Of a stretch of 64,000 bases of DNA, positions 38,150-64,000 are shown one piece after another. The notes below the pieces were generated by a model. The model was not told the DNA's origin. It saw nothing but the letters and a program-made list of their open reading frames with translations, and searched no databases. How positions within the stretch are numbered: position 1 is the stretch's first letter; each line of letters opens with the position of its first letter. A program made the translations under genes and the position numbers. The stretch is from assembly GCA_005223045.1 (NCBI GenBank), contig NJBM01000009.1, forward strand, positions 147,732-211,731, read 5' to 3'. The DNA comes from Planctomycetes bacterium B3_Pla (GTDB lineage: Bacteria; Planctomycetota; Phycisphaerae; Sedimentisphaerales; Anaerobacaceae).

Positions 38150-38211
38150 CTGATATACGATGTTACGCGTTCAATTATCATTTATCACTTATCAATAATC
38201 ATTCAAAAGGT

Positions 38212-38309
38212 GGCCGGGTTAACCCACAGCACGACCAAGCGGCACGTTTATGGCTGCTCGGTTCCCCGCCTGACCAGGTTCACGGGCTCGGTCTGCATGG
38301 GACCCGGCC
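38212..38309 (-). ncRNA. ffs: Signal recognition particle RNA (4.5S type)
   Basis: On the minus strand the 98-nt sequence starts GGCCGGGT and ends ACCCGGCC, which pair to close the hairpin. The apical domain IV reads CCTGGTCAGGCGGGGAACCG followed by AGCAGCCA, the counterpart of the E. coli loop with GGTCAGGTCCGGAAGGAAGC. Location just upstream of the dnaX cluster is normal for bacteria. A TAGTAT box lies about 5 bp before the 5' end. It is likely to pair with Ffh; ffh is not in the window. Confidence 0.88.
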
Positions 38310-54636: not shown

Positions 54637-56118
54637 ATGAGAAAAACAATCGCTCTGCTCATGTTGATGTTCTCAGTGAGCACCCAGGCAAATGACTGGT
54701 TTGAGGCCTGGCATAACAGAGATAAATGGTTCGGGGCGGGCGAGGCCATGCTCAATCAGGACAACGCAAGACAACTGGTCGGCAAAGCGGGCAGCGGTGT
54801 CCTGATCAACGGCAAAGAAGGCAAGCGCCCCAGCCTCATCACCAAGCGGCGCGATTACCGTGACGTCGAAGTCCACGTGGAGTTCATGGTCGCCAAAGGC
54901 TCGAACTCCGGCGTGATATTTCATGGCAACTATGAAATCCAGATACTCGACAGCTACGGAATTAAGAAGCCGACGGCGGGACATTGCGGGGGAGTCTATC
55001 CGCGGGCCGAGAGCAAGCCTACCTACCATCACATCGACAAAGGCTCTCCCCCCAGAGTCAACGCCGCTAAACGGCCGGGCCAGTGGCAGACGATGGATAT
55101 TACTTTTAAGTCGCCCCGGTTCAACAAAGACGGCAAGAAAACCGCTCATGCCAGGTTCGTTAAGGTTGTGCACAATGGGAAGGTGATCCAGGAAGACGTT
55201 GAAGTGCCGTACGCCTGCGGCACTAACTGGGACCGCAAACAGTTTCCGCAAGGCCCAATCATCATCCAGGGCGATTACGGCCCGATAGCGATTCGTAACG
55301 TACGCATCAGGGAATGGAACGCAGACGCAGGGAAAAGACTGAACGTCCCGCCGGCCGGTTTCACCGCCCTTTTCAACGGCAAGGATCTCACCGGCTGGCA
55401 TACACCGCCCCTGGTTAAAGAATACTGGTCTATCGAGGATGGTGTGCTCAAGTCGCCCGGGCTTATTGAAAACTGGGGCGCCAGCCTCAGCACGAAGAAG
55501 CATTACAGAGATTTTGTACTGATGCTCGATTTCAGAATGCCGACCATTTCGGACAGCGGCATCAACTTCCGCAGATTGATTCCTGAAATTCCAGGCTTCG
55601 GGGACATGGAGCAATTTAACCTGAGGTCCAGGGGCGGAATGGGACACCTGGAGAGTTACTATTTTCTGCCCAAGGAGACTGCAAGAAAGATGGGCCTCAA
55701 GGAGGACGAGAAGCCTCACGTCCGGCATATCGATCCGGAAGTCGGCGTCTGGCATACGGTCAAACTGACCATGCAAGGCCGGACGTTCTCCGCCGAGTAT
55801 GACGGAGAGGTCATTCTTGATAAATTCGAGTACCACGACTGGATGATAAACACCGAGCCGGCGCCTATCAGGCTGCAAAAGCATATCGTCGTGCACGGTG
55901 ATAACCTCGGCAAAGAGAATCCCTGCCCCATCGAGTATCGCAACATCTTCATCAAGGAACTTGAGCCGGACAAGGATCCCTTGCATGGGGGCATGTCAGA
56001 CACAAAAAGGAAAACCTTGCCGGCGGTTGTTGCCGGCAAGGCTCTTAGCGAGGCCGAAGGGACTCGAACCCTCAACCTTCGGATCGACAGTCCGATGCAC
56101 AGAAAACACAAGTGTTGA
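54637..56118 (+). CDS. Secreted protein with two DUF1080 domains; C-terminus runs into a tRNA fragment
   Basis: A 493-residue exported protein (signal TIALLMLMFSVSTQAN). Domain 1 covers about 20-235 (VEVHVEFMVAKGSNSGVIFH, GPIAIRNVRIREW) and domain 2 about 240-445 (TALFNGKDLTGWHTPP, LMLDFRMPTISDSGINF, IEYRNIFIKELEP). Both are DUF1080 folds. After about residue 446 the frame continues through a hairpin terminator and then through the reverse of a tRNA-Asp fragment, giving the well-known artefactual peptide EGTRTLNLRIDSP, before a stop at 56118. The natural C-terminus is therefore probably near residue 445, and the tail was created when sequence downstream was changed. Last gene of the keto-sugar operon. 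Confidence 0.85.
   Translation: MRKTIALLMLMFSVSTQANDWFEAWHNRDKWFGAGEAMLNQDNARQLVGKAGSGVLINGKEGKRPSLITKRRDYRDVEVHVEFMVAKGSNSGVIFHGNYEIQILDSYGIKKPTAGHCGGVYPRAESKPTYHHIDKGSPPRVNAAKRPGQWQTMDITFKSPRFNKDGKKTAHARFVKVVHNGKVIQEDVEVPYACGTNWDRKQFPQGPIIIQGDYGPIAIRNVRIREWNADAGKRLNVPPAGFTALFNGKDLTGWHTPPLVKEYWSIEDGVLKSPGLIENWGASLSTKKHYRDFVLMLDFRMPTISDSGINFRRLIPEIPGFGDMEQFNLRSRGGMGHLESYYFLPKETARKMGLKEDEKPHVRHIDPEVGVWHTVKLTMQGRTFSAEYDGEVILDKFEYHDWMINTEPAPIRLQKHIVVHGDNLGKENPCPIEYRNIFIKELEPDKDPLHGGMSDTKRKTLPAVVAGKALSEAEGTRTLNLRIDSPMHRKHKC
56003..56041 (-). terminator. Terminator downstream of the tRNA-Asp locus (minus strand)
   Basis: CCTTGCCGGC (56015-56024) and GCCGGCAAGG (56032-56041) form a perfect 10-bp stem; on the minus strand it is followed by a T-rich run (ttttcctttttg). 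It lies 8 bp beyond the tRNA fragment's 3' end and overlaps the reading frame of the DUF1080 gene. Confidence 0.8.
56049..56098 (-). pseudogene. 3' half of tRNA-Asp(GTC), interrupted: possible attachment site
   Basis: On the minus strand the anticodon arm TCGGA-CTGTCGA-TCCGA (anticodon GTC at 56088-56086), a variable loop, the T-arm GAGGG-TTCGAGT-CCCTT and the acceptor strand CGGCCTC plus discriminator G are all present. Upstream of the anticodon stem only GC of the D-stem remains; then the sequence becomes unrelated. The break is therefore just 5' of the anticodon arm, as expected for a site-specific integration junction. Confidence 0.8.
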
Positions 56119-56317
56119 AGAAACAAAGACTTGCGAAACGTCAAAATCGCCGTTGACACCCCAGTTGACACCTACATCCCGAAAACAGGGTGAGATTGAC
56201 ACCTCGGAACTACCCTCAGACCTTGCTGACATCGTAGCGGTTTGGCCGAAACTGCCGGAGCATATCAAGGCGGCGATCAAGGCACTCGTGCAATCCAGCG
56301 CCAAGGAGACCGAGTGA
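56105..56317 (+). pseudogene. Fragment resembling the C-terminal tail of a tyrosine integrase
   Basis: A frame with no obvious start (a TTG at 56153 is possible) ends at 56317 and encodes LPSDLADIVAVWPKLPEHIKAAIKALVQ. From memory, tails of this form (acidic run, 'L-A-x-I-V-x-x-W-x-x-L-P-E-x-I-x-A-A-I') are common at the end of integrases in planctomycetes. No catalytic core precedes it; the tRNA junction lies just upstream. Its stop overlaps the ATG of the next gene as TGATG, so it is probably still translated. Identification is by recollection of similar tails only. Confidence 0.5.
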
Positions 56318-56943
56318 TGCGGACAGCAACCATGAATGGTGTTGACGCCCAAACGGGCGTGACTCCGGAGATTGAGGGCGAGACAGACGATCTCGGCAAA
56401 GAAGAGCAGAAAAGCAGGTTCATTCATCTGAGGGCCAAAGGTCTCAGCTATGCCAAGATAGCCAAGGATTTGAAAGTCTCTACGAGCACGCTGACCAACT
56501 GGAACCAAGAGCTTCTGGAAGAGATAGCACAGGCGAAGTCCATGGAGTTGGAGGCCCTCCAGGAAGAGTATTTCATGCTCAAAGAAGGCCGGATCAAGCT
56601 GCTCGGGGGGCAGCTGAAGACTATCCAAGAAGAGATCAGCGGTCGAGATCTCTCAAAGGTGAGCACAGAAAGGCTGATGGAGTTCCAGCTCAGATACTTC
56701 CGTGAACTCAAGACAGAGTACGTGGCGACTTCTGCGGGAGACAGAATTGGCATAAAACTGAACAGCAACGACATTGCAGAGCAGTTGCAGTCGGTTCTGG
56801 AGCGATATAAGGCTGGCCAAATAGACGAAGCTCAGGCCAAGCAAGAGCAAACGATGCTGCAGTCCATGCTTAAGGCCATTGAGCAGACAGAATTGGTAGC
56901 TAGGCTTGAGAAGATCGAGTCGGTAGTGAATGCAAGGAGGTAG
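56317..56943 (+). CDS. HTH protein with coiled coil, mobile-element associated
   Basis: A 208-residue soluble protein. The HTH segment is HLRAKGLSYAKIAKDLKVST (about 37-56), a resolvase/terminase-small-subunit-like DNA-binding motif, followed by long charged helices (LEALQEEYFMLKEGRIKLLG onward). The ATG at 56317 overlaps the upstream stop and has AAGGAG 10 nt before it; a longer frame from 56242 is not favoured. It may be a DNA-recognition subunit of a mobile element, like phage terminase small subunits, or a regulator; the following unknown gene starts 4 bp after its stop, with the AAGGAGG site lying over the stop codon. Confidence 0.75.
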   Translation: MRTATMNGVDAQTGVTPEIEGETDDLGKEEQKSRFIHLRAKGLSYAKIAKDLKVSTSTLTNWNQELLEEIAQAKSMELEALQEEYFMLKEGRIKLLGGQLKTIQEEISGRDLSKVSTERLMEFQLRYFRELKTEYVATSAGDRIGIKLNSNDIAEQLQSVLERYKAGQIDEAQAKQEQTMLQSMLKAIEQTELVARLEKIESVVNARR

Positions 56944-56946
56944 TCC

Positions 56947-58350
56947 ATGGCACGGAGATTGACGAAAGAAGCCATTAGAAAACTCCTGACCAAAGGGCTG
57001 ACAGGCTGGAAAGCTGGGAAGCTCATCCTGCAGGATTCAATCGAGTCCTATTTTAGGAGGGACTCCTTCCTCACCGAGGGCGATATCGCGGCCATCCGGA
57101 ACACGCGGATGGAAGGGGCCGATGTCCGGGACTACAACATGTTCATGGCTCTATGCCGGGGTTTCCACGTGGGCCATATGCTGGGGGAATGGACCTGCTC
57201 GGACGCCTGTCTGGAAATCATCCTGCTCGAACGGCCGCTGCGAGATGCTCACAAGCGCCGGACCGTGGAGTTGTTCGAGTCATTCGGCCCCCGTGTGGTC
57301 ACGCGGCAGCAGTACGACGATATCGTGGCGGCACAGAGAGAGAAGAAACTGGAACTTGAGTACAATCTGGCCTGGGTGATTGAGGATCGGTTCTATGCGA
57401 TAGCGCCACCGGAGGCCAGGGAGGAGATAGAAGAACTCTGCATTGACATAGAGTCTGCCCAAGACTTCGCATCTGCTATCCCCAAAAAATACACCGATAT
57501 TTACCAGCAGGCCGTTAAAGAGATTCGCCGTCTGCATATCAGCGGCAAGCTGCCGGCGGTTTACCAGAAAGAGGATGCGAAGGAGGCCGAGCCGCTCTTG
57601 GCCAAATGGAAGAGGGGCCAGCTTTCGGCCAGGGACACCATGAAACTCGTGGATCTGCTCTACGTCACTGGCCAGCAGCTCTACGAGTGCGACGAATTGC
57701 CGGAATGGAGAGACTATATGGACAGTTATAATCAATACGTGTCTGCCGATGAGGACGAGCGTTTCGGCCACACCTATGCAGTCCTGGAGGATTGTTCGGC
57801 AGCTTGGACCGATGAGCAAGGCTACTACAAGGGGCCGGGAAAGCCCAGTGAATGGATTACCCGGAGCACGGAACGGCTCCTGGGGCTTGTAAACGACGAC
57901 GACAAACCAAAGAAGTCCATCGCGAAGGTTGGGGCTGCATTGGTCGATAGGCTGGAGACTGCCATGCTGAATATTCGGCTGTTCTTGGCCACCAAGGCGA
58001 TACTCGACGCCGCAGCGGAGGCTGTCGAACTGGACATTCCGGCCAAAGTTGGCATGCTGGCCGGCCCCAATATCCGGCTTGGTGCGTTCGTTGCCATTTA
58101 CAACTTCCGGCTCGAGGAACTCAACGAAGAGCGAAAATCGTCGAAGTCCGGCGGGACCCGGCTGGAAAAGGCCCTCAGGATGCTGCCGCCCATCGACCCT
58201 GAGAAACTCGGGCCGAGCCCTGAGTCCCTGAAACAACTCAAGGACAATGTCTTGAAAGACGCCCAAGGCCACGATTGGCTACGGACCACGGTGCTCTCTC
58301 TGGAATATGAGGGCGGCTTCAGTTTCAGGGATGTGGTACGAGAGGACTGA
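56947..58350 (+). CDS. Large unknown protein of the mobile region (467 aa)
   Basis: A 467-residue mostly helical, charged, soluble protein with no signal peptide or membrane segment. It has several Trp/Tyr-rich parts (HVGHMLGEWTCSDACLEIIL, ELPEWRDYMDSYNQYVSADED) and a late LFLATKAILDAAAEAVEL. I do not recognise a family. The gene has a strong AAGGAGG site and is tightly linked to the HTH gene upstream, so they probably work together. Phage structural or packaging, element maintenance or host-interference roles are all possible; none is supported by a motif. Confidence 0.7.
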   Translation: MARRLTKEAIRKLLTKGLTGWKAGKLILQDSIESYFRRDSFLTEGDIAAIRNTRMEGADVRDYNMFMALCRGFHVGHMLGEWTCSDACLEIILLERPLRDAHKRRTVELFESFGPRVVTRQQYDDIVAAQREKKLELEYNLAWVIEDRFYAIAPPEAREEIEELCIDIESAQDFASAIPKKYTDIYQQAVKEIRRLHISGKLPAVYQKEDAKEAEPLLAKWKRGQLSARDTMKLVDLLYVTGQQLYECDELPEWRDYMDSYNQYVSADEDERFGHTYAVLEDCSAAWTDEQGYYKGPGKPSEWITRSTERLLGLVNDDDKPKKSIAKVGAALVDRLETAMLNIRLFLATKAILDAAAEAVELDIPAKVGMLAGPNIRLGAFVAIYNFRLEELNEERKSSKSGGTRLEKALRMLPPIDPEKLGPSPESLKQLKDNVLKDAQGHDWLRTTVLSLEYEGGFSFRDVVRED

Positions 58351-58802
58351 GAAGCTGCCATTTCCGCACTTGGGCATGGTTACCGCCAGAACGCCAGTTT
58401 TTCCGGCATTAGCGGGCGTAGAGAGGACAATAGGCACGTAGCCAATAGGTAGGCGGGCCATAGTCCAGCGTAGTCGCGTGGTGCCGGCTTTCGAAGCCCA
58501 AAAGCCCCTCCAATCCAAATTCCCGCCCATCCTCTTGCTGCTCAGATTGTCCTCATTTTGCATTTTCTGGCACATTTTTTCCCTTGAACGTCTGGCTGCT
58601 GCATCATACACTGCCAATTGCGATTTTACCCTGATTTCTCGGAGCCAAAGGTGAAGCTCTCCGGTGCGCCCGCCCTTTGCGGGATACCGACGGGGACGGA
58701 GTGCAGGAATACCGCCCCCCGCAGCTCGCAACTTGGTGCCCACCCCGTTGGCAGAGATGACATCGTGCGATGTTCTACCGCCGCACTAATTCGGGAGAGT
58801 GC
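58351..58802. other. Region between the unknown gene and the integron integrase
   Basis: About 450 bp. This is where attI and the first cassette would be expected beside an integron integrase. I could not identify attC sites (GTTRRRY with a matching RYYYAAC). A 154-codon minus-strand frame (58279-58743) has an implausible composition and no ribosome-binding site. Confidence 0.45.
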
Positions 58803-59894
58803 ATGACTCAGGTAGGAATAAGCAAGGCAGCATCCGGTTCTTCGTTAGAAGGACAGCAACCGCACCAGCAGTCGCCCGTTGCGAGAAAACCAAGGCTTCT
58901 GGAGCAGCTTCGCCAGGCATTGCGTTCACGCCACTATAGCCGTCGGACTGAGCAGACGTATTGTCAGTGGGTCAAGCGGTTCGTATACTTCCATAAAGTT
59001 CGCCACCCAGCGGAGATGGCCGAACCAGAGATCAATGCTTTCCTGACACATCTGGCTGTCAAGGAGCAGGTCAGTGCCTCGACCCAGAACCAGGCCCTCA
59101 GTGCGCTACTGTTTCTCTATCGACATGTGCTCAATCGGAAGATCGGGGACCTTGGCGAAGTGACCCAGGCTAGGAAGCCGAAACGCCTACCCGTAGTCAT
59201 GACGAGGGAAGAAGTCAAGCTTGTTCTCAGCCACCTCAAGGGCGACAGGTGGCTGACGGCCAGTCTGATGTACGGAGCGGGGCTGCGTCTCATGGAGTGT
59301 TTGCGGCTGCGGGTGCAGGATACGGATTTTGCAGCCAGGCAAATTATCGTCCGTGCCGGCAAGGGATTCAAAGACCGTGTTACTATGTTGCCCGAAGTGG
59401 TCACGGACCCGTTATTGAAACATCTGAAAAGCGTTAAGAGAATCCATGAACGCGATTTGGCAGAGGGTTATGGGTGCGTGTTCATGCCTTATGCATTGGC
59501 ACAAAAGTATCCCAATGCGGCGGCTAACTGGCGCTGGCAGTTTGTGTTCCCACAGGGGCATCGCTGGGTTAATAAGAAGACAGGGCAGCAAGGGCGGCAC
59601 CATGTTCATGAGTCGGTTTTGCAGAGATCTGTCAAAGAGGCTGTGAGAAAAGCGGGGATCGTCAAGCATGCCACGCCTCATACATTTCGTCATTCCTTTG
59701 CCACACATCTGCTGGAGGACGGGTATGATATCAGGACCGTGCAGGAACTCCTGGGCCACAATGATGTCAAAACCACGATGGTCTATACCCATGTTCTCAA
59801 TAGAGGTGGCAAAGGCGTGCGTAGCCCTCTGGATGGTCTCAGGAGCAGCCCTGGAAAGGTGTCTTATACGGATCTGCATAAGACCCCTGACTAA
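58803..59894 (+). CDS. Integron integrase (IntI-type tyrosine recombinase)
   Basis: A 363-residue tyrosine recombinase. SAM-like N-terminal domain: about 30-115 ([21 protein letters not shown]). Catalytic residues: Arg162 ([12 protein letters not shown]), His293 and Arg296 ([14 protein letters not shown]), His319 (LGHNDVKTT) and the nucleophile Tyr328 ([11 protein letters not shown]). The IntI-specific insertion is present at about 230-250 ([20 protein letters not shown]), which separates integron integrases from XerC/XerD. GGGAG lies just before the ATG at 58803. The protein appears complete. No cassette array is visible on either side. Confidence 0.92.
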
Positions 59895-60039
59895 ATCGCA
59901 GAGATTCCTGTATCTTCTTTATAGACAGTGGTTAACGGTTGAAACATGATTTAGTCGCTGGGTTCTTATGCTGCAAAACCAGCGTTGTTTGGGTTCTTAT
60001 ACGGATCCACATATACATTGTTAGATGAGGACAATTATC
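59895..60039. other. Sequence 3' of the integrase with short repeated motifs
   Basis: cttatacggatc occurs at the integrase end (about 59866) and again at about 59998, and GTTAGAT (fits GTTRRRY) is at 60020-60026, but no complete attC was seen. Confidence 0.4.
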
Positions 60040-60222
60040 ATGGTAACAACTTTTTCAATTAACCGGTATTTGCTAGTGACTTGGGCTTTTGCAACAAGTT
60101 GGCTCTTTCTGTTTTCTCCAACAAACTTAGGGGCAGTAGAGGACGGCAACTCGGAGTGCGCCGCCCCCTTATGTTGGTCCATGCGTCATGAGAGTAATTC
60201 ACAATACTTCTCCTTGTCTTGA
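60040..60222 (+). pseudogene. N-terminal remnant of a secreted protein
   Basis: ATG at 60040 (AGGA upstream) encodes a signal peptide-like start (YLLVTWAFATSWLFLFSPT) and about 30 more residues, then stops at 60222. With the LamG tail at 60251-60316 it looks like the two ends of a larger secreted gene joined by deletion. Confidence 0.45.
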
Positions 60223-60250
60223 GTAAGGCGGAGGGAACCGAAGCCTTGCT

Positions 60251-60316
60251 CAAGACACCTTCTTCTCCGGCCTGATCGACGACGTTCGCATTTACAACCG
60301 GGCAGTCAAACCGTAG
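60251..60316 (+). pseudogene. C-terminal remnant of a LamG-domain protein
   Basis: The last 21 codons read ...FSGLIDDVRIYNRAVKP and then TAG. 'G-x-I-D-D-V-R-I-Y-N-R-A' is the typical last strand of LamG/concanavalin-like domains in planctomycete secreted proteins. No start codon precedes it in frame. Confidence 0.6.
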
Positions 60317-60343
60317 CTAAGCCGTTTGAAGAAAAAAACTGGT

Positions 60344-60378
60344 GGGCTGGCAGCCTGAAACACTGCCAGCCCTTCTTT
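60344..60378 (+). terminator. Strong Rho-independent terminator
   Basis: GGGCTGGCAG (60344-60353) pairs perfectly with CTGCCAGCCC (60363-60372), followed by ttcttt. It lies 28 bp after the LamG remnant, as it would for the intact gene. Confidence 0.85.
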
Positions 60379-60484
60379 CATGATGTGGCAGGTGTAGTTC
60401 GTCGGACGGTTACAGAAGCTCTATTAACGTGAAGCCTTTTCGCGTGGCCACAACATATCTCCTTGTCTTTCAGAGAAAGTGTCT

Positions 60485-62259
60485 CACAATTAACATTTCA
60501 TTTGAATCTGGTGCTGTCTATTTCTGGCTTTGCCTTATCCCGCATTTCCCAGGTAAACAGTGACACATGAACAGGATTATGATAGTATGAAGCCTATGGA
60601 GACCACTCAAGCCAGCTTAGACCATCTGACATGGGAGAACCCAATGGGTGAAACACGCAAGGACGCTCTGAGGCTCAATTTTGACCGTAAATTGAAGCTT
60701 GAATTTCATGGGACCAAGGTCACCAGTGATGCTGGCCTGCTGGCTTATCGAGAGCTTGATGAGATACTCCGTCTGACCTCAGCAATTGACTCAGAGCTTC
60801 GTGACATCCGAACGGGCAAGAACACCCAACACGGTCTTGCCGCTTTGCTCAGACAGTCGATATACAGCAGGCTTGCTGGCTATGACGACACCAATGATGC
60901 CGAACGTCTATGTGTTGATCCTGCGATGCGGCATATTGCAGGGGGTAGAGCAATAGAACGTTCCGCCGCGTCAACCAGTGCAATGGGAAGATTTGAAACA
61001 GAGATACTGACTCAGTCCAAGAACCTGGAGCTATTGATGAACCTGGTAGGTCAATGGGTTGATCGAGTACACCAGCGAAAATCACTCAAGCAGATTATCC
61101 TTGATATGGACAGTTCTGTCAGCCCGACCTATGGCAATCAGGAAGGCACTGCTTACAACGGTTATTTTCAATGCACTTGCTATCATCCTTTGTTCTGCTT
61201 CAACCAATTTGGCGATTTGGAGCGAGCCCTCCTTCGCAATGGTAATGTTCATAGTGCCGATGACTGGCGACGTTTACTGGAGCCGATTGTCAATCGTTAT
61301 CGAGGCTATAACATCCTCCGATTCTTCCGTGGCGATGCAGCCTTTGCTGATCCCAATATTTACGGGTATCTGGAAGCAGAGGGATACTTATATGCGATAC
61401 GACTGAAGGGTAACCAAATACTGCATAAGAAGATTGAACACATGTTGACTCGACCTGTGGGGCGCCCACCAAAGAAGCCTGTTGTTCTATATCACAGTTT
61501 TCGGTATCAGGCAGCCAGTTGGGACGTGGCTCGCAGAGTAGTCGCCAAGATTGAGTGGCATGCGGGAGAACTTTTTCCAAGAATCAACTTTATAGTCACG
61601 AACCTTCGGTGGAAATCCAGCAATGTGGTGAGGTTCTACAACAAACGAGGCACTGCCGAGCAGTGGATCAAAGAGGGAAAATACGCGTTGAATTGGACAC
61701 GGCTTTCCTGTCATGATTTTGTGGACAATCAGGTCCGACTTCAACTCTTTGCCTTGGCTTACAACCTGGGTAATTTTTTGAGGCGATTGGCATTGCCCAA
61801 GCCGGTGAAGAAATGGTCGCTCAGAACGCTCCGTGAGAAGCTGATCAAGATAGGAGCTAAGGTGATCAGCCATTCGCGTTACGTGATATTTCAGATGGCC
61901 GAAGTGGCTGTTCCGAGGGTGCTGTTTCGTGAAATTCTGAACCGAATCCAACAACTGCGATTTTTGGCAATATCCAGTGGTCTGGGATGATTTATGAAAT
62001 TGCTGAAAGACCAGCTTCATGAACGGAGGGCGACGGCGGCGGTGTGCCAACATTGTGGGAACAAGTGCATTCTTCCCACAAATACGTGGCTTTTCTTCTG
62101 CGTAATGCGACATGGCGGCCCGAATTTCTCGGCAATTCGTTGAATTTGCGATGCAATTTTGGTATTATGGAACTCGAATTGAACAAGGAGTGTCTCAGGA
62201 AAAGTGCCCAAACGTGTAGAAATGCCGTTTGTGGAATCAAATGGGAAATGTCAGTTGAG
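60485..62259 (+). mobile_element. IS1380-type insertion sequence
   Basis: The transposase gene is bracketed by imperfect terminal inverted repeats: left 60485-60510 (ctcacaattaacatttcatt and tgaatc) and right 62234-62259 (gaatcaaatgggaaatgtca and gttgag). The 1775-bp length suits the family. I could not define target-site duplications with certainty. The 250 bp between the transposase stop and the right repeat contain no gene. Confidence 0.65.
60560..61990 (+). CDS. IS1380-family transposase
   Basis: A DDE transposase of up to 476 residues. The start is uncertain: GTG 60560, ATG 60587, ATG 60596 or the ATG at about 60644 (MGETRKDALRLNFD), where the family similarity begins. DDE-type acidic residues are in IILDMDSSVSPTYG, RFFRGDAAFADP and TAEQWIKEGKYALNWTRLSC. 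N-terminal helices include LEFHGTKVTSDAGLLAYREL and YSRLAGYDDTNDAERL, typical of IS1380. The frame is intact, so the element may be active. Confidence 0.9.
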   Translation: MTHEQDYDSMKPMETTQASLDHLTWENPMGETRKDALRLNFDRKLKLEFHGTKVTSDAGLLAYRELDEILRLTSAIDSELRDIRTGKNTQHGLAALLRQSIYSRLAGYDDTNDAERLCVDPAMRHIAGGRAIERSAASTSAMGRFETEILTQSKNLELLMNLVGQWVDRVHQRKSLKQIILDMDSSVSPTYGNQEGTAYNGYFQCTCYHPLFCFNQFGDLERALLRNGNVHSADDWRRLLEPIVNRYRGYNILRFFRGDAAFADPNIYGYLEAEGYLYAIRLKGNQILHKKIEHMLTRPVGRPPKKPVVLYHSFRYQAASWDVARRVVAKIEWHAGELFPRINFIVTNLRWKSSNVVRFYNKRGTAEQWIKEGKYALNWTRLSCHDFVDNQVRLQLFALAYNLGNFLRRLALPKPVKKWSLRTLREKLIKIGAKVISHSRYVIFQMAEVAVPRVLFREILNRIQQLRFLAISSGLG

Positions 62260-62473
62260 TCAAGTTCGGATCTACCAATAACCAGGTTTGCCATCCTTCG
62301 GGCGACTCATCTTTTGTCTTCTTCCCGGCGCTGGCAACTGGACGAATGTTGCATTAGTTGAAAAACAGAATGAAAAATTATAGAAAGCGTGGCGTGCAGG
62401 AGCACTGTTTATTAAGTCAAATGGGAAATCCCGGTTCAAGAGGACATAGATAGCGGAAGCACCAGGAATCTAT
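62260..62473. other. Short gap between the insertion sequence and the promoter module
   Basis: A sequence similar to the right repeat (gtcaaatgggaaat) recurs near 62418, perhaps from an earlier insertion. No gene recognised. Confidence 0.35.
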
Positions 62474-62533
62474 CTAAATAGATGTCAGGATTCGTATCCG
62501 TCAACCGTTATAATTTCAAGATGGCAATCTCAG
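62474..62533 (+). promoter_or_regulatory. Promoter/leader module, copy B (upstream of TolC-like gene)
   Basis: About 88% identical to 50718-50777. It contains TATAAT at 62509-62514 and ends in an ATG-started frame (MAISEQDILRMLMKSRDRIA onward). Spacing and the start codon position are the same in both copies. Confidence 0.6.
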
Positions 62534-62619
62534 AGCAGGACATTCTGCGAATGTTGATGAAATCGCGTGACCGCATTGCGGCGACTGATTGGTCCCGCCG
62601 ATCACCGAGGAGACAATAA
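62521..62619 (+). pseudogene. Truncated start of an ECF-type sigma factor gene
   Basis: A 32-codon frame starting at 62521 reads MAISEQDILRMLMKSRDRIA and then degenerates to a stop at 62619. Planctomycete ECF sigma factors commonly begin 'S-x-Q-D-I-L-R-x-L-x-x-x-R-x-R-I'. No region 2 follows. Its stop touches the GTG of the TolC-like gene, so it may act as a leader peptide. Confidence 0.5.
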
Positions 62620-64000
62620 GTGGAACCTGCACGCTGCCTGACTCGAATCATCGGAATCCTATCAATGCGAGTTTCCCCGCATGATTTCGGGGTGTGGGTG
62701 ATGCCTTTTCTGCTGGTATCCGTCGTTATCGCCGCCAGCGGGTGTTCGCGCACAGAGCATCGACTTCAAGCGGATCGGGAAGCGTACGATGTGATCGCCG
62801 AGCGAAACGATGATCCGCGATGGCACGCGGATGACTATAGCATCGAGATTGATCCTCGCAGTCGATACTTCGATCCCTGCGATCCGGATCGCCCGCCGAT
62901 GCCCTCGGACGATCCTGCCTCGCGCCAGTACATGCGCCGGGTTAGCGGCAAGAAAGGCTGGGAGCACTGGCATGACGACGGCGAGCGGGTCGAGCTGGAG
63001 AATCCCGCGTGGCGCGCGGCGCTTGCCGAATATGTTGAAATCGGTGCCGATGGCTCGGTCCAGCTCAACATCGACTCTGCGCTGAAACTCGCCTACGTAC
63101 ACTCACCTTCGCACCAGAACCAACTGGAGACCCTCTATCTGTCGGCCCTGGACGTTACGACAGAGCGATTCCGCCTGGATACGCAGTTCTTCGGCGGATA
63201 TGGCGCCACATACGACCGCCACGGATCGTTGAAGGACGATCAACTGACCGTAGGCCGTCCATCCACGGGCAATCCGGCACTCCAGACGCGACGGCGATTT
63301 GCTTCCGCAGGTGAGCTTCTGGTCGGATTCGCCAACTCGTTCGTGGTCGATTTCCCCGGCAACGGCGCGAACTTCGTCAGTTCGATTGCAAATTTCTCGT
63401 TCGTTCAACCGTTGTTGCGCGGTGCCGGGCGAGACATTGCGTTAGAGCAACTGACGTTTGTCGAGCGTGCCTTGCTTGCGAACCTGCGTGCCTACCGTCA
63501 ATATCGCCAGGGTTTCTATACGCAAGTCGCAATTGGAGAGCTGGGGGTCGTCGGACCACAGCGGGGTGGCGCTGGCACAGTCATCGCGGGATTCTCCGGT
63601 CAGGGTAGCGTCGGCGGTTATATCGGCCTGCTGCAACAACTCCAGCGGATCCGCAATACCGAGGACAACCTCAGCCTGCAGGAACGCACCCTGGCACGTC
63701 TGGTAGCCTTCCAGGAAATCGGTGTAATCGACCTGGTGCAAGTGGACCAGTTTTGGCAGAGCATTGAAAACGAGCGTGCCAACCTGCTGCAGATTCACAA
63801 TAGCTTTGAACTGACCCTTGATTACTACAAGACGGGCACACTCGGTTTGCCGCCGGACCTGCCAATCGAGTTGGACGACAGTCTGATTCGCCAGTTTCAA
63901 CTCGTCGCTCGCGAGGCAACCGCGGTCGAAGACGCGATTGTCGAGTTGCAGGATCGTGTGGGCGAGCTGTCGGACGATGTGGGCATCGAACCGATTCGTC
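62620..64000 (+). CDS. TolC-like outer-membrane efflux lipoprotein (partial, runs off right edge)
   Basis: A frame of 460 codons open at the right edge. The GTG at 62620 has GAGGAG 7 nt upstream; ATGs at 62665 and 62701 are alternatives. A lipoprotein signal follows (FLLVSVVIAASGCS; lipobox A-A-S-G-C). The mature N-terminus has the planctomycete-type segment PRSRYFDPCDPDRPPMPSDD. Then comes the first outer-membrane efflux domain: IDSALKLAYVHSPSHQNQLE, VERALLANLRAYRQYRQGFY and long helices such as ARLVAFQEIGVIDLVQVDQF, typical of TolC-family channel proteins for drug or metal export. The inner-membrane and adaptor genes would be expected to the right of the window. Base composition is more G/C-rich than that of the insertion sequence before it. 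Confidence 0.82.
   Translation, partial: MEPARCLTRIIGILSMRVSPHDFGVWVMPFLLVSVVIAASGCSRTEHRLQADREAYDVIAERNDDPRWHADDYSIEIDPRSRYFDPCDPDRPPMPSDDPASRQYMRRVSGKKGWEHWHDDGERVELENPAWRAALAEYVEIGADGSVQLNIDSALKLAYVHSPSHQNQLETLYLSALDVTTERFRLDTQFFGGYGATYDRHGSLKDDQLTVGRPSTGNPALQTRRRFASAGELLVGFANSFVVDFPGNGANFVSSIANFSFVQPLLRGAGRDIALEQLTFVERALLANLRAYRQYRQGFYTQVAIGELGVVGPQRGGAGTVIAGFSGQGSVGGYIGLLQQLQRIRNTEDNLSLQERTLARLVAFQEIGVIDLVQVDQFWQSIENERANLLQIHNSFELTLDYYKTGTLGLPPDLPIELDDSLIRQFQLVAREATAVEDAIVELQDRVGELSDDVGIEPIR

Follow-up and report, generated by a model that had tools for sequence, protein, structure and literature searches.

The window analysed here, a stretch of 64,000 nucleotides from Planctomycetes bacterium B3_Pla (contig NJBM01000009.1, positions 147,732 to 211,731), very likely contains one end of a mobile element whose tyrosine integrase gene (int) holds its own attachment site. 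Several parts of this reading are shown by sequence, namely the architecture of the locus, the agreement of reading frames across the attachment core, the detached integrase tails, the arm motifs, a joined gene in a complete viral genome and selection on the tail. Other members of the family are prophage-like.

The tRNA-Asp junction in the window

The attachment core (Table 1) matches nt 26-75 of an intact, 76-nt tRNA-Asp(GTC) gene located on a different contig of the same genome (G000:C39:453645-453720) in 50/50 nucleotides, and the match ends there. The piece keeps the anticodon arm, the variable loop, the T-arm and the acceptor 3' strand, while the acceptor 5' strand and the D-arm (the first 25 nt) are absent, and ARAGORN found no intact tRNA in the window. 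The host flank directly 3' of the piece is about 84% identical to the element side on C39 over 123 bp, with the core counted in. Host-type genes are located to the left of the junction; to the right, a tail-like frame extends to its stop and is followed by element-type genes.

Already upstream of the tRNA piece the tail frame is open, and it stays so up to its stop. On C39, a tyrosine integrase (PF00589, E 8e-16; SAM-like N-terminal domains) is encoded on the strand opposite to tRNA-Asp, and its reading frame crosses the antisense tRNA (..STRPKGLEPSTFGSTVRC..) uninterrupted by stop codons. The window has this antisense frame too (..LLARPKGLEPSTFGSTVRC..), and here it continues into ..LTPQLTPTSRKQGEIDTSELPSDLADIVAVWPKLPEHIKAAIKALVQSSAKETE and then stops. 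The motif TTGACACC is repeated with a 12-bp spacing on both sides of the core, at 56153 and 56165 in the window, where a further copy lies at 56196, and at −184, −172 and −160 before the core on C39. The pairing of the window tail with the C39 body rests on this identity of core, frame and arms; the two are on different contigs, and remains of other elements lie near both.

An earlier note, made without database searches, had described a tRNA-Asp cut 5' of the anticodon arm with its 3' parts kept, which held in view of the full identity to the C39 gene. Its proposal of an att junction in a tRNA gene, with host sequence on the left and element sequence on the right, is supported. It had placed the intact tRNA-Asp or the other end outside the window and had named the absence of any intact copy or second att as refuting; the search found the gene on C39, with an integrase pointing into it. 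An assembly error at 56.1 kb, the other possible refutation, is unlikely; the same junction layout occurs in dozens of genomes, in several of them on single contigs. The "integrase-tail-like fragment" of the note is real and can be specified further as the detached C-terminal end of the element's own integrase gene. An excised circle of the window element was not seen, and an empty attB could not be shown in two genomes of the same genus, as the loci taken from them are without tRNA-Asp.

Table 1 Features of the window around the junction and further observations (positions refer to the window).
Feature	Position	Strand	Remarks
Att core	56049..56098	-	3' part (nt 26-75) of tRNA-Asp(GTC)
Host flank directly 3' of the tRNA piece	55976..56048	.	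Terminator-like hairpin GCCTTGCCGGC..GCCGGCAAGG
Detached int coding sequence, linker after core	56099..56212	+	Putative arm repeats TTGACACC, encoding ..LTPQLTP..
Detached int coding sequence, conserved tail	56213..56317	+	PSDLADIVAVWPKLPEHIKAAIKALVQ...; stop 56315-56317
HTH (transposase/homeodomain-like) gene	56317..56943	+	Adjoins tails in other genomes too
467-aa protein, no known family	56947..58350	+	Found in 9/89 family genomes
Host-side 493-aa protein frame	54637-56118		Crosses the antisense tRNA piece in another frame
Integron-type integrase	58770-59894		TIGR02249, 478 bits (cut-off 265)
IS1380-family transposase	60560-61990		NF033539
Bacterial small SRP RNA	38209-38309	-	RF00169, 67 bits

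The host-side 493-aa frame also runs through the antisense tRNA piece, and its annotated end may therefore be wrong.

Both ends of another element of the same genome are present on one contig (G000:C38). There, the integrase body enters an intact tRNA-Arg(CCT) at 47.8 kb, and the far end, a tRNA-Arg piece followed by a tail, is located at 75.4 kb in the same frame with a core of 49 bp. The sense strand of the tRNA is read in at least one further pair, formed by C39 at 476 kb and the tRNA-Arg(ACG) on C27. Additional tails, integrase bodies or tRNA junctions were observed in this genome at C39:464653-464814, C39:476315-477313, C10:52537-52802, C17:229859-230008, C27:8429-8694 and C24:184616-184988, some of them decayed. 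From these extra, partly decayed loci we conclude that several such elements have entered and left the genome over time.

Paired bodies and tails and the joined gene

We collected 35 pairs of integrase body and tail from 24 genomes, with 30 of the pairs on a single contig. We selected them manually from hit lists according to orientation, the tail being in the position that the model requires. In 34/35 pairs, a tRNA or tmRNA core of 27-99 bp (core score ≥22) was present as a direct repeat, and in all 34 the reading frame agrees across the core, compared to 31/69 mismatched control pairs with tRNA similarity. The body frames are open into the core in 34/34 and the tail frames are open from the core in 33/34 pairs. 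The agreeing pairs use different antisense frames, of the GLEPSTFG, RDSNPR and RIRTFD types. The count overstates independence, since many pairs are related by descent and the 34 pairs are not 34 independent events. The criteria for a tRNA-targeted element, i.e. a tRNA piece and an intact tRNA in the same orientation bounding the element, are met by G000:C38 and by the 34 pairs. At most loci read, the integrase bodies run into antisense tRNA, and in a second set from outside the family an intact tRNA or tmRNA is present at 22/23 body loci.

The 35 pairs exclude two candidates that we interpreted as tandem or decayed cases, one with body, core and tail adjacent but out of frame (G183:C16) and one a partial joined copy (G375:C50). 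Long tail frames in G066:C7 and G005:C1 looked joined and were rejected for lack of a catalytic domain. One integrase of this type lies against a tmRNA gene (L366, G165:C3:94500-98000).

In 24/35 pairs, a shared repeat was detected before and after the core (p<0.01 against shuffles). The reading frame of the repeat differs between the two sides in 15 of these 24; therefore, it is the DNA that has been kept and not the peptide. The repeats resemble integrase arm sites, which is an inference, as no binding has been shown.

The two parts occur as one gene in viral contigs, although only two joined examples were found, one of which is complete. In IMGVR_UViG_3300025162_000083, a contig of 43,208 bp with a perfect terminal repeat of 127 bp and genes including terminase, head-protease and tail-fibre, int is one frame comprising the catalytic domain, an antisense tRNA piece and the tail; the integrase matches phrog_1 (E 1e-39), and an intact tRNA was not found in this contig. 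These parts follow in the same order in the second joined gene, that of IMGVR_UViG_3300031673_000939, where the tRNA piece is a 5' half in sense orientation. Searches of the viral contigs with the family integrase or the tail alone as query gave no joined genes, which were recovered with a broader integrase alignment. In L150 (G117:C13) the catalytic domain is joined straight to the tail and tRNA-Leu lies outside the gene; this relative without insert possibly represents the ancestral state. Cores made of the 5' half of the tRNA, as opposed to the usual 3' half, were observed in L174 (the second viral contig) and in L322/L347 (G360); upon integration at such a core, the host tRNA would therefore have its 5' half and promoter region exchanged for new ones.

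Across 24 tails, pN/pS was 0.27 in frame and third codon positions vary most, showing at the level of sequence that the tail is under purifying selection; the tails came from a protein search, which favours conserved ones. An AlphaFold model of the joined integrase of IMGVR_UViG_3300025162_000083 predicts an ordered body, a disordered region at residues 412-519 including the tRNA piece, and a helix hairpin at 525-557 (pLDDT about 88-91). Disorder of the linker would account for the tolerance of inserts from any tRNA, on either strand and in any frame.

The family tail query matched 61/89 family genomes, the lowest-scoring weak matches representing tRNA antisense alone, and the tail profile matched 215/397 genomes of the class. 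In the family search, almost all tails were located in short frames without a catalytic domain, and related tails come after tRNA pieces in many genomes. The top matches of a genome scan with a 4-row alignment were mostly planctomycete. No relatives of this integrase were found in plasmid or phage collections at 1e-10, and the joined integrase gave only weak matches to phages.

Proposed mechanism and rival explanations

The evidence for a mechanism is sequence; no transcript, protein or excision was observed. In the free circle, int would encode the DNA-binding and the catalytic domains, followed by a linker spanning about 100 codons and a tail of about 35, the linker consisting of arm repeats, the tRNA piece and more arm repeats. 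The integrase would use the tRNA piece as attP and recombine it with the host tRNA gene serving as attB. Integration would restore the host tRNA on one side, where the catalytic part would stay and int would read through the antisense tRNA into host DNA, thereby acquiring a host-encoded C-terminus. The tail would end up at the opposite end of the element, following the tRNA piece left there; in the window, this arrangement corresponds to 56049-56317. Excision would rebuild the full-length gene. We infer that the arm repeats bind the integrase and that the tail helps it to act on attP, be it in assembly, stability or direction. By analogy with the Myxococcus phage Mx8, loss of the tail may render the prophage integrase weaker or different.

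The junction could instead belong to an ordinary tRNA island with attP outside int, in which case the tail would be the remnant of a decayed second integrase and the frame match a product of chance. The tail of L150, which has its tRNA-Leu outside the gene, speaks for this view and indicates that a tail can belong to a normal integrase. However, the agreement of frames in every pair with a core, as opposed to fewer than half of the controls, the near absence of catalytic domains from tail frames and the matching arm repeats that flank the core all argue against it, and the joined gene of the first viral contig refutes it as a general account, so that we regard it as very unlikely. Equally improbable is that the antisense reading is an annotation artefact, with int ending before the tRNA and the frame open by chance. 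It is common for a frame antisense to a tRNA to be open and to be mis-annotated as the end of a protein, but here the frames agree in pairs using different antisense frames as well as in the sense-strand pair of C39 and C27, and selection acts on the tail beyond the core.

The detached tail might also be expressed alone at the far end and act in trans, e.g. as a directionality factor. In favour of this are the purifying selection on the tail and an open frame upstream of some tails; for the frame in the window, a GTG start lies at 55898. Yet the upstream part is host sequence that differs per element and therefore no common start or promoter is kept, and the joined form already accounts for the selection. 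We thus consider a trans-acting tail unlikely and retain the integrase with an internal attachment site as the preferred reading.

The principle of such an integrase is already known from Mx8, where attP lies inside int and integration swaps 112 C-terminal residues for 13, leaving an altered integrase with reduced activity or changed specificity (PMC4701971, PMC6070905). Mx8 integrates into a tRNA-Asp gene. As in the planctomycete integrase, attP of the Mx8 integrase (IntP/IntX) is in the int frame downstream of the catalytic domain, and integration gives a new C-terminus with the catalytic domain intact, for which the planctomycete evidence is sequence only. A peptide read from antisense tRNA, STGLEPVLLGS, is also present in the 574-aa Mx8 protein, at aa 456. 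BLASTP detected no similarity between the two integrases, HHalign gave a probability of 1%, and the Mx8 integrase did not match the tail profiles. We conclude that the planctomycete integrase works like that of Mx8 but belongs to an apparently separate and far more widespread family, and we do not file it as a relative.

The archaeal "suicidal" integrases of the SSV type likewise carry attP, within a tRNA segment, in int and are split by integration (PMC8371274). In SSV the split removes the catalytic domain and leaves neither part active, whereas the planctomycete gene is split after the catalytic Tyr and its catalytic part stays whole; PF16795 (Phage_integr_3, SSV type) is absent from it. 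In mycobacteriophage BPs, attP is in a coding sequence and integration drops a C-terminal segment and alters function, but the gene changed is the repressor and not the integrase (PMC4557955). Streptococcal ICEs in rumA have an att site in the integrase gene and a different C-terminus in the excised form (PMC4701971); they differ in using a serine integrase and a protein-gene target. The tRNA genomic islands of Islander show an intact tRNA at one end and a displaced piece at the other (PMC4383910), but their attP is usually not treated as part of int, Mx8 and SSV being the named exceptions. Integrases with an att site inside their own gene have been described as archaea-exclusive (PMC8371274) and as occurring in "very few" elements (PMC4701971). 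As far as we have searched, the Planctomycetota family is new, as are the tail that its members share and the repeated arm motifs.

With dozens of planctomycete examples, targeting many tRNAs and a tmRNA and having the detached tail in common, it becomes testable why a phage alters its own integrase by integrating, and how attP moves to new tRNA genes without breaking int, for which a disordered linker could tolerate nearly any insert. In planctomycete genomes, the tail can be used to recognise the far end of such elements, and detached tails account for otherwise puzzling short frames that encode tRNA-like peptides next to tRNA pieces.

Genes behind the tail

The ATG of the HTH gene overlaps the stop of the tail by one base, and the gene for the 467-aa protein adjoins a tail in four of the other genomes having it. 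A same-strand frame lies directly behind about half of the tails checked, without a chance baseline. It is possible, and at present only an inferred lead, that genes downstream of the tail are also separated from the int transcript upon integration. A bolder reading, which we would not quite back at even odds, is that these elements form a class-wide planctomycete family with the integrase tail as an integration-dependent switch. The tail would be present only in the free form and set integrase activity or direction; once integrated, an antisense-tRNA peptide would take its place and the genes downstream of int would lose their promoter.

Less than 2.5 kb from the junction, the window encodes an integron-type integrase, directly followed by the IS1380-family transposase; a simple pattern search of positions 58001-64000 found no attC-like sites. 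Elsewhere in the window, a bacterial small SRP RNA was identified (Table 1).
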